64,000 nucleotides of DNA, taken from contig CAMPDV010000875.1 of assembly GCA_946699065.1 (NCBI GenBank), positions 1-64,000 of the forward strand, given 5' to 3'. Positions 12,794 to 64,000 of the stretch are shown here, one piece after another; within the stretch, counting starts at the first letter, position 1; every line of letters starts with the position of its first letter. This stretch comes from Loxodes magnus (Eukaryota; Ciliophora; Karyorelictea; Loxodida; Loxodidae). The translations under genes were made by a program, and so were the position numbers. The notes beneath the pieces are model-generated. The model made no database searches, was not told where the DNA came from, and worked only from the letters and a program-made list of their open reading frames with translations.

Positions 12794-15700
12794 TCAATCA
12801 TCTTTAAAATCAATATTCAAATTTAAATGAGATAAATTTAAAATAAAATTATAAAGTTATTTAAAGCATATGCATTTAGAATTTAAAATCAATTTGAAAA
12901 TAGAAAACAAATTCTAAAATATAATGCAAAAAAAAATAGAGCTAATTTAAAAAACGTAGCTGAGACAACTAATGGTCTTACATGTACCTGTCTTGACGTC
13001 CCATAGTCTCACCGTCTTATCTAAACTTCCCGATACGATGAACTCTGAATCACTGGATATAGCCACAGCATATACAACATTAGTGTGACCACTCATGGTC
13101 TTACAGGTACCTGTCTTGACGTCCCATAGTCTCACCGTCTTATCTAAACTTCCCGATACGATGAACTCTGAATCACTGGATATAGCCACAGCATATACAT
13201 AATTAGTGTGACCACTCATGGTCTTACAGGTACCTGTCTTGACGTCCCATAGTCTCACCGTCTAATCTGCACTTCCCGATACGATGAACTCTGAATCACT
13301 GGATATAGCCACAGCACATACATAACTTGTGTGACCACTCATGGTCTTACAGGTACCTGTCTTGACGTCCCATAGTCTCACCGTCTTATCTACACTTCCC
13401 GATACGATGAACTCTGAATCACTGGATATAGCCACAGCACATACATAACTTGTGTGACCACTCATGGTCTTACAGGTACCTGTCTTGACGTCCCATAGTC
13501 TCACCGTCAAATCATCACTTCCCGATACGATGAACTCTGAATCACTGGATATAGCCACAGATAATACATAATGTGTGTGACCACTCATGGTCTTACAGGT
13601 ACCTGTCTTGACGTCCCATAGTCTCACCGTATTATCACAACTTCCCGATACGATGAACTCTGAATTACTGGATATAGCCACAGCATATACAACATTAGTG
13701 TGACCACTCATGGTCTTACAGGTACCTGTCTTGACGTCACATAGTCTCACCGTCTAATCTACACTTCCCGATACGATGAACTCTGAATCACTGGATATAG
13801 CCACAGATAATACATAATGTGTGTGACCACTCATGGTCTTACAGGTACCTGTCTTGACGTCCCATAGTCTCACCGTATAATCATGACTTCCCGATACGAT
13901 GAACTCTGAATCACTGGATATAGCCACTGATCATACTTAACTAGTGTGACCACTCATGGTCTTACAGGTACCTGTCTTGACGTCCCATAGTCTCACCGTA
14001 CAATCATTACTTCCCGATACGATGAACTCTGAATCACTGGATATAGCCACAGATGATACATTAATAGTGTGACCACTCATGGTCTTACAGGTACCTGTCT
14101 TGACGTCCCATAGTCTCACCGTAGAATCTTAACTTACCGATACGATGAACTCTGAATCACTGGATATAGCCACAGAATATACATTACTAGTGTGACCACT
14201 CATGGTCTTACAGGTACCTGTCTTGACGTCCCATAGTCTCACCGTATAATCTACACTTACCGATACGATGAACTCTGAATCACTGGATATAGCCACAGAT
14301 CATACATAACTAGTGTGACCACTCATGGTCTTACAGGTACCTGTCTTGACGTCCCATAGTCTCACCGTCTTATCTAAACTTCCCGATACGATGAACTCTG
14401 AATCACTGGATATAGCCACAGCACATACATAACTTGTGTGACCACTCATGATCTTACAGGTACCTGTCTTGACGTCCCATAGTCTCACCGTCTAATCTAC
14501 ACTTCCCGATACGATGAACTCTGAATTATTGGATATAGCCACAGCATATACATAATGTGTGTGACCACTCATGGTCTTACAGGTACCTGTCTTGACGTCC
14601 CATAGTCTCACCGTCTTATCTAAACTTCCCGATACGATGAACTCTGAATTACTGGATATAGCCACAGCATATACAACATTAGTGTGACCACTCATGGTCT
14701 TACAGGTACCTGTCTTGACGTCCCATAGTCTCACCGTCTCATCTCCACTTCCCGATACGATGAACTCTGAATCACTGGATATAGCCACAGCATATACAAC
14801 ATTAGTGTGACCACTCATGGTCTTACAGGTACCTGTCTTGACGTCCCATAGTCTCACCGTCTCATCACAACTTCCCGATACAATGAACTCTGAATCACTG
14901 GATATAGCCACAGCATATACAACATTAGTGTGACCACTCATGGTCTTACAGGTACCTGTCTTGACGTCACATAGTCTCACCGTCTAATCATAACTTACCG
15001 ATACGATGAACTCTGAATCACTGGATATAGCCACAGCACATACCTAATTTGTGTGACCACTCATGGTCTTACAGGTACCTGTCTTGACGTCCCATAGTCT
15101 CACCGTCTAATCTACACTTCCCGATACGATGAACTCTGAATCACTGGATATAGCCACAGCATATACAACATTAGTGTGACCACTCATGGTCTTACAGGTA
15201 CCTGTCTTGACGTCCCATAGTCTCACCGTCTAATCTACACTTCCCGATACGATGAACTCTTAATTACTGGATATAGCCACAGCACATACATAACTAGTGT
15301 GACCACTCATGGTCTTACAGGTACCTGTCTTGACGTCACATAGTCTCACCGTCTAATCATAACTTCCCGATACGATGAACTCTGAATCACTGGATATAGC
15401 CACAGCACATACATAACTTGTGTGACCACTCATGGTCTTACAGGTACCTGTCTTGACGTCCCATAGTCTCACCGTATTATCTACACTTCCCGATACGATG
15501 AACTCTGAATCACTGGATATAGCCACAGATAATACATAACTAGTGTGACCACTCATGGTCTTACAGGTACCTGTCTTGACGTCCCATATTCTCACCGTAT
15601 TATCTCCACTTCCCGATACGATGAACTCTGAATCACTGGATATAGCCACAGATCATACCTAATTTGTGTGACCACTCATGGTCTTACAGGTACCTGTCTT

Positions 15701-63700: not shown

Positions 63701-64000
63701 TACGATGAACTCTGAATCACTGGATATAGCCACAGCACATACCTAATTTGTGTGACCACTCATGGTCTTACAGGTACCTGTCTTGACGTCCCATAGTCTC
63801 ACCGTCTTATCTAAACTTCCCGATACGATGAACTCTGAATTACTGGATATAGCCACAGCATATACAACATTAGTGTGACCACTCATGGTCTTACAGGTAC
63901 CTGTCTTGACGTCCCATAGTCTCACCGTCTCATCACAACTTCCCGATACGATGAACTCTGAATCACTGGATATAGCCACAGATAATACATAGCTAGTGTG
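12794..64000 (-). CDS. Giant WD40-repeat protein, C-terminal part (N-terminus beyond window)
   Basis: With TAA/TAG as Gln and TGA as Trp the minus strand is one frame from the right edge to TGA at 12794-12796: 17,068 residues in view. From 12,960 rightward it is all 41-residue WD40 units of the form [19 protein letters not shown] / [22 protein letters not shown]. More than 90 open stretches bounded by stop-type codons across the array were checked for phase and all are in the same frame. These codons sit where neighbouring units have Gln-like residues (DQT beside DET, DKT, DNT) or where WD40 proteins usually have Trp (VWSV). Seven or eight blades make one propeller, so over 50 propellers are encoded. 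The last unit breaks off at KTISC (about 12,960), followed by about 55 non-repeat codons from AT-rich DNA; a TAA at 12947 could instead be the real end. By homology to gene 1 the missing N-terminus may be RING/coiled-coil/pentapeptide, which is inference. It could be a pseudogene or repeat reservoir, but the lack of frameshifts argues against decay. Confidence 0.75.
28315..31507 (-). repeat. Head-to-tail duplication of 13 WD40 units
   Basis: Segment about 28,315-29,908 recurs at about 29,914-31,507, offset 1,599 bp = 13 x 123. The order of variable loops is the same in every unit compared, and I saw no difference between the copies. The match ends where one copy has AKSS and the other AISS. 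This is one of the youngest events in the array. Confidence 0.85.
33845..37545 (-). repeat. Head-to-tail duplication of 16 WD40 units
   Basis: About 33,845-35,575 recurs at about 35,813-37,545, offset 1,968 bp = 16 x 123. A few differences (for example GDK versus GDN and GHTN versus GHTR) show it is older than the 13-unit event or was partly overwritten. Confidence 0.8.
54590..58815 (-). repeat. Head-to-tail duplication of 17 WD40 units
   Basis: About 54,590-56,725 recurs at about 56,681-58,815, offset 2,091 bp = 17 x 123. The unit order of loop variants is the same in both copies, including runs of GHTN-Gln units. Confidence 0.85.
58790..63840 (-). repeat. Head-to-tail duplication of 21 WD40 units
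   Basis: About 58,790-61,257 recurs at about 61,373-63,840, offset 2,583 bp = 21 x 123. The copies agree unit by unit until one has GATCTTACATAAC and the other CATATACAAC after the LDK unit. It lies next to the 17-unit duplication, so the right end of the visible array is the most recently amplified part. Confidence 0.85.

Follow-up and report, generated by a model that had tools for sequence, protein, structure and literature searches.

How a genome comes to carry more than four hundred nearly identical WD40 repeats in one open frame, and whether such a frame spells out one protein, is the question raised by a 64,000-nucleotide stretch of DNA from the ciliate Loxodes magnus (contig CAMPDV010000875.1 of assembly GCA_946699065.1, positions 1 to 64,000; hereafter the window). 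Its minus strand holds an array of 415 WD40 units, which a preliminary description took for a single polypeptide of titin-like size. About 10 kb from the array lies a seven-bladed gene, gene 1, with units near-identical to those of the array. Our analysis favors, with a probability of roughly 0.55, the reading that the array is a recombining in-frame megasatellite of hypervariable recognition-type WD40 blades and not one giant protein. The array, its three short units, and gene 1 are located as follows (papers are cited by PMC number and from parts of their text).

12965..64000, minus strand: WD40 unit array, 415 units (412 of 123 bp and 3 of 120 bp), in a single frame that exits the window at its upstream (high-coordinate) end
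41249..41368, minus strand: 120-bp unit, one codon short in loop B (residue 22)
39161..39280, minus strand: 120-bp unit, one codon short in loop B (residue 22)
31907..32026, minus strand: 120-bp unit, one codon short in loop B (residue 22)
551..3085, minus strand: gene 1, 844 residues and a terminal TGA; sub-threshold RING-like match at the start, then predicted helices, pentapeptide repeats, and seven WD40 repeats

Architecture and genetic code of the array

Unit anchors occur 415 times on the minus strand in one common phase, with a spacing that is always 123 bp save for three of 120 bp. The repeats span 51,036 bp, or 415 x 123 - 9, and the spacing arithmetic of the preliminary description, with its three 3-bp losses, was right. 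TRF (Tandem Repeats Finder) independently returned a period of 123, 415.0 copies, and 93% matches. The three 120-bp units all read SGSDE and may therefore stem from a single codon loss that was then copied. Because the array touches the window edge and its 5' end is unseen, 415 is a minimum; the earlier count of about 415 units, far more than in ordinary WD40 proteins and still running off the window, is upheld.

The 41-residue consensus of the unit was derived base-wise. Mean nucleotide identity between units is ~92-93%, ten 15-unit protein windows are 87-92% identical to an eleventh, and the array has a GC content of 44% as opposed to 24-34% in its surroundings (2-kb steps). Chance origin of the array was rejected, as the window contains 329 exact matches to a 56-base unit pattern and 100 shuffles yielded none. 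Eight array units match the WD40 profile PF00400 at an E of 2.6e-89, in agreement with the first identification of the units. AlphaFold predicted propeller-type strands for 15 units, with a mean predicted local distance difference test score (pLDDT) of 81.1 and a predicted template modeling score (pTM) of 0.65; the five models spread in pLDDT from 81 to 39 and leave the number of blades per ring undecided, and Foldseek aligned the model to a two-propeller protein and also to eight-bladed designs.

With TAA and TAG read as Gln and TGA as Trp, translation is unbroken from 64000 to 12797 (17,068 codons), and the first TGA after the repeats stands at 12796-12794. The single uninterrupted frame that had been proposed is thus real, as is the collapse of a patchwork of about 95 short frames into it upon recoding; under the standard code we count 295 pieces (111 of at least 60 residues, the longest of 306), a figure that differs in that a start codon was not required. 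In all, 294 stop-type codons occur in the repeats, with one or more in 199 of the 415 units, and they are confined to unit residues 4, 6, 14, 22, and 24. Codon counts were made on 412 of the 415 units (those of 123 bp by the cut used, three of them out of register). Among these, TGA occurs 113 times, at residue 6 only; TAA or TAG 177 times, at residues 4, 14, 22, and 24 only; CAA or CAG not once; and TGG 397 times, at the conserved Trp 29. Four further stop-type codons, in units outside this count, are also at residues 4 and 6.

Bacterial relatives allow these codons to be compared with the residues favored at the same sites. Screening of bacterial plasmids with seven array units (tblastn) matched 342 records, and 10 of the best 15 of these 342 lie in NB-ARC, NACHT, or caspase-family proteins. 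The reference for site tests comprised 201 distinct WD40 repeats from 21 loci and included 8 of those 15. Of the 20 residues, Trp is both the most frequent and the best at site 6. Gln shares first place with Lys at site 24; over sites 4 and 24 combined Arg just outranks it, and over all four TAA/TAG sites it comes after Gly and on a par with Ser. On this comparison the reading of TGA as Trp appears well supported, and that of TAA and TAG as Gln less so when taken alone. Because Gln comes second in the pooled sites, the known ciliate code lends the Gln reading more support than the site test does: code 27 of karyorelicts has UGA as Trp or stop (PMC11441545) and TAA and TAG as Gln. A tRNA scan of the window found none.

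Gene 1 is written in the same code. Stop-type codons make up 76 of its 845 codons, including the terminal TGA; it has 54 TAA, 18 TAG, 24 CAA, 9 CAG, and three internal TGA, one of which stands at the conserved WD Trp (site 29), a position that is Trp in 98% of 118 bacterial repeats (118 of 180 repeat matches, from 13 loci). The possibility that the array consists of nonsense-decayed WD40 genes in the standard code was rejected, since 13 unit positions could yield a stop-type codon by a single substitution and only 5 of them have one, CAA and CAG are absent, TGA is found at site 6 only, and gene 1 has the same code.

Loop variability and exchange among units

Entropy among the units is highest at residues 22, 6, 24, and 4, and next highest at 3, 7, and 36. 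The top four are two pairs that flank the conserved V5 and D23. Paoletti et al. 2007 (PMC1805685) report strong positive selection on codons 7, 9, 25, and 27 of Podospora WD40 repeats and purifying selection on codons 8 and 26, and a 2010 study (PMC2873952) places the selected residues in surface loops atop the propeller. Array residues 4, 6, 22, and 24 correspond to the four positively selected codons by spacing rather than by direct alignment to HET-E, at a constant offset of 3. By a hand calculation, the four highest-ranking of 41 residues would coincide with four specified sites by chance once in 101,270 cases, or ~once in 2,500 with a free offset.

Loop-combination, rare-variant, substitution, and profile tests were conducted on the 409 units that were in register, after removal of three 120-bp units along with their three mis-cut neighbors. 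Replacement changes shared by several units affect sites that vary among the bacterial relatives: those at 2-20 copies (n = 20) have a mean bacterial entropy of 2.61 and those at >20 copies (n = 23) one of 3.06, against a neutral 1.79 that reached neither value in 10,000 simulations (0/10,000 each). The plain claim that the array follows the variability of its family is disfavored, since array and bacterial entropy correlate weakly over all 41 residues (Spearman 0.23, P 0.16); the significant test is that of multi-copy replacement changes. Singletons lie on sites more conserved than neutral (entropy 1.25 versus 1.79), partly because existing variants can mask new changes at hypervariable sites.

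Of the 415 units in the array, 216 are distinct; at the DNA level they carry 33 types of loop A and 32 of loop B, in 127 pairings. Unit order is mostly aperiodic and interrupted by blocks duplicated exactly, whose lengths of 19, 16, 12, and 9 units go with lags of 21, 17, 13, and 16, respectively; the longest is the following.

58835..63754, minus strand: recent block duplication, units 2-20 = units 23-41 exactly (19 units, lag 21), coordinates calculated from unit numbers

Near-identical runs of at least 5 units number 9, versus a mean of 0.02 in 50 shuffled orders. Linkage between loop A and loop B of one unit, 54 nt apart, amounts to 0.53 bit, that between loop B and the next loop A, 69 nt away over the unit border, to 0.50 bit, and inter-loop linkage fades across ~1 kb. 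Linkage thus tracks DNA distance and not blade borders, which indicates that units are shuffled by unequal crossing-over and gene conversion and that blades are not the units of exchange; as in satellite DNA, exchange is driven by position in the DNA rather than by the borders of the protein. A higher-order period of 7 or 8 units, as propellers would impose, was ruled out, since the lags of the nine runs (13, 16, 17, 21, 28, 32, 40, 58, and 61) have no common multiple. Rare variants concentrate at the 3' edge of the array, with a mean load of 1.00 in the last ten units versus 0-0.67 in other bins, and this excess, as at satellite edges, counts for a megasatellite.

We therefore propose the following history for the favored reading. 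In a nuclear genome of ciliate type, with TAA and TAG read as Gln and TGA as Trp, the blades would have come from a family of expressed recognition-type WD40 genes resembling gene 1, and their loop residues would have been diversified under protein-level selection while within such genes. A blade would then have been multiplied and shuffled at the DNA level by unequal crossing-over and gene conversion that ignored blade borders. The array would persist as repeat DNA, and not as the coding sequence of one 17,000-residue protein, possibly swapping blades with expressed genes.

One giant protein, a donor store, or repeat DNA

The array might instead be translated into one giant protein of ~59 seven-bladed propellers (for the 415 blades in the window), perhaps serving multivalent recognition or as a scaffold and with blades that are nearly dispensable, a reading that we consider possible but rather unlikely. 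In its favor is an open frame of 17,068 codons without a single frameshift. The preliminary description argued from that continuity, and although the absence of frameshifts stands, it is weaker evidence than claimed: 123 is 3 x 41, so any exchange of whole units preserves the frame, and retention of the frame is partly automatic. A coding-derived megasatellite evolving at the DNA level accounts for the frame about equally well. The stop-type codons suit a Gln/Trp code, with Trp the best residue at site 6 in relatives, and the predicted propeller-type strands over 15 units, with a protein of two propellers (2ymu) as best Protein Data Bank (PDB) match, also speak for translation.

Constraint on the units themselves was evaluated with the loop sites set aside (3-7, 22-24, and 36 in replacement/silent tests; 3, 4, 6, 7, 22, 24, and 36 in the WD40 profile test). 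Outside the hypervariable residues, variants agree with the WD40 profile no more than random ones do, whether they are singletons (10 variants, P 0.18), at 2-4 copies (1 variant, P 0.22), or at 5-30 copies (10 variants, P 0.31), in tests made blunt by the distance of the bacterial relatives. The 20 singletons comprise 14 replacement and 6 silent changes, which is the neutral ratio. Among the variants outside the hypervariable residues are I10K in 27 units, D23A in 18, G20V in 15, and W29C in 15 of 409, and some of these would be expected to harm the WD40 fold.

The end of the array also counts against one giant protein.

12794..12964, minus strand: tail past the last unit, 56 open codons, 16.7% GC, then in-frame TGA at 12796-12794

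The 3'-UTRs (untranslated regions) of L. magnus have 18.6% GC and its coding sequence 33.5% (PMC11441545), so that by composition the tail appears UTR-like, near the former value and far from the latter. No closing blades follow the last unit, whereas gene 1 has a complete ring. The frame is open down to the TGA that closes the extent first assigned to the protein (12794-64000), but the repeats stop at 12965 and the last 56 codons are unlike coding sequence. A decayed 416th unit in the tail was ruled out, since the next 200 nt align like shuffles (P 0.60 for the consensus, 0.76 for unit 3 of gene 1), and the tail retains only a 30-base edge match to gene 1. The last array unit alone ends in TGT, as does unit 2 of gene 1. 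A hidden C-terminal part of an array gene in the spacer toward gene 1 was likewise ruled out: the 12 matches reported to the C terminus of gene 1 are gene 1 itself and the array. Decayed retroelements adjoin the array, and the start of any giant gene would lie outside the window.

The apparent neutrality of the non-hypervariable variants, the excess of rare variants at the edge, the UTR-like tail, the lack of closing blades, and the automatic frame are the grounds on which we favor a megasatellite over a protein. What had been described as one titin-like polypeptide is therefore retained as a frame of more than 17,000 codons, with translation as one chain possible but less likely.

Several observations weigh against the megasatellite. 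No frameshifting indel accompanies the 72 distinct substitution variants and the one kind of codon loss, an outcome with a P of ~0.003 if indels are assumed to arise at 10% of the substitution rate and of 0.056 at 5% (0.20 at the assumed 10% for the 20 singletons alone). Replacement changes outside the nine loop codons are slightly few, at 18/30 versus an expected 0.74-0.76 (P 0.04-0.07). Loop variants at high copy number (>30, n = 17) are WD40-like (P 0.0016), which shows past selection and could reflect present selection too. Some singletons may be sequencing errors or mildly harmful changes awaiting removal. Finally, none of the loop-A combinations of gene 1 is found among the 29 array combinations in 409 units, or in the six units checked apart, and present-day exchange with gene 1 is therefore not seen.

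This last result bears equally on a second alternative, that the array is a silent archive whose blades reach expressed genes, gene 1 for example, through gene conversion. With loop codons 3-7, 22, 24, and 36 set aside, 99 sites can be compared, and units 2-4 of gene 1 depart from the array consensus at 2, 4, and 2 of these, so that the central backbone is near-identical to that of the array, silent sites included, and the loop-B type YDQ is common to gene 1 and the array (31 of 409 units). Short-range exchange is pervasive in the array, Podospora pseudogene loci retain intact WD repeats, which has been attributed to exchange with active loci (PMC1805685), and ectopic recombination or conversion has been proposed for leucine-rich repeat (LRR) exons of Tetrahymena (PMC6564038). 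The best-matching units of gene 1, however, still differ by 5 nt from their closest counterpart among 412 array units, and with no shared loop-A combination we judge a silent archive distinctly improbable.

Least probable is that the array is real and its length or order an artefact of assembly: tandem repeats assemble poorly, and differences in L. magnus assembly size have been blamed on misassembled low-complexity repeats (PMC11441545), but the 216 distinct units stand in a mostly aperiodic order with a longest exact duplication of 19 units (2.3 kb), linkage decays smoothly with distance, which makes scrambling unlikely, and the repeats contain no single-base indels.

The recipient or source that blade exchange would involve, gene 1, begins with a RING-like match below the cut-off (PF13639, E 0.0015), continues through a mainly helical middle (low-confidence model) and pentapeptide repeats (PF00805, E 9.1e-12), and ends in WD40 repeats (PF00400, E 3.4e-69), of which Pfam counts 6 stretches, the seventh repeat being degenerate. 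Its model shows a complete ring, with 28 strands counted over residues 511 to 801 and a block pLDDT of 73-93, or 61-68 at the end. A NACHT match was absent both from its first 520 residues, with matches admitted up to E 1, and from the best 25 of 35 families in a whole-protein Pfam scan.

Surrounding sequence and relation to known systems

The sequence between gene 1 and the array contains remnants of retroelements.

3086..12964, no strand assigned: spacer from gene 1 to the array, 26.6% GC (3086-12963)
within 8.4-10.2 kb and 10.9-12.3 kb, minus strand: two decayed, frame-broken reverse-transcriptase (RT) fragments, PF00078

One RT fragment matched PF00078 in two frames (E 4.7e-14 and 2.3e-8) and the other at E 6.1e-10, and we infer that they are of non-long terminal repeat (non-LTR) type. 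Six-frame Pfam scans of the whole spacer gave no family at E 0.01, and the RT matches emerged only with shorter pieces. An inverted pair of related repeats (3457-3843 and 10570-10970, 66% identity over 405 columns), with a shorter relative at 5924-6025, possibly represents short retroelements. An open plus-strand stretch at 4400-5200 has a zinc-knuckle-like Cys/His pattern by eye and no Pfam family at the cut-off, and is perhaps the first open reading frame of a retroelement. A 54-bp AT-rich tandem repeat of 5.1 copies lies at the window edge (2-278). Rfam had no matches over 1-16000, and exact 24-mer and peptide scans of viral contigs found none. The only PADLOC matches, HEAT-ARM_XIII and Csa3, were taken as repeat-type or chance.

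Among described systems, the array resembles the HNWD/NWD repeats of Podospora anserina (HET-D, HET-E, and HET-R), which have very similar WD40 units, concerted evolution, and, by spacing, the same four hypervariable residues (PMC1805685, PMC2873952); the array has the very high unit identity and the hypervariable pairs flanking a conserved V and D that characterize that family. Functional HNWD alleles have ~10-11 repeats (PMC12222747) versus at least 415 here, and HNWD proteins carry HET or NACHT domains N-terminally, whereas gene 1 has a weak RING-like start and pentapeptide repeats and the N terminus of the array frame is outside the window. A 2014 survey of fungal NOD-like receptors (NLRs) gave a maximum of 21 WD repeats, then the highest number for a WD propeller domain (PMC4986451), and a 2022 survey illustrates 15 blades (PMC9218822). 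The cyanobacterial protein WRAP (Npun_R6612, PDB 2ymu), which is both the best PDB sequence match (E 5.9e-117) and the best Foldseek match, likewise has near-identical, recently amplified WD40 blades, but these are 14 in two closed propellers (PMC6805158) versus at least 415 with an end unseen.

Highly repetitive WD40 proteins with high internal identity and diverse predicted interaction hotspots have been described from prokaryotes and lower eukaryotes, protists among them, and the available part of that account mentions no array of hundreds of units (PMC5587647). With such proteins already described, what is new here is scale and setting and not kind. The window looks ciliate in its code, composition, and retroelements, and it resembles the genome of L. 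magnus, with its code 27 and ambiguous TGA, AT-rich 3'-UTRs, and many retrotransposons and tandem repeats; the genome paper, in its available part, mentions no WD40 array (PMC11441545). Like satellite or megasatellite DNA, the array is long, tandem, and homogenized, with unequal exchange, block duplications, and more rare variants at its visible edge, and unlike them its unit is an in-frame protein blade with variation focused on recognition residues. A literature search, with subscription papers mostly outside its coverage, found no paper combining WD40 and Loxodes and, by title and abstract start among the papers listed, no report of such an array.

Known high-identity WD40 repeats with diversified loops, in fungi and bacteria, comprise ~10-20 units; the present array, with more than 400 in one frame and in a nuclear genome where all three stop codons are read as sense, is on a far larger scale. 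We raise, as a speculative possibility, that these recombining blades, at least 415 of them with ~30 x 30 loop types, form an in-frame archive that provides or itself encodes WD40 recognition surfaces, by being copied into receptor-like genes (gene 1 being an example) or by expression as one ~59-propeller chain, and so may constitute a self/non-self repertoire built on the same four residues as in fungi. If expressed, the product would be among the largest proteins and would test how ribosomes handle nearly 300 stop-type codons per message. The array is also a natural experiment, a single locus whose units suffice to gauge mutation, the length of exchange tracts, and the selection acting on propeller blades.

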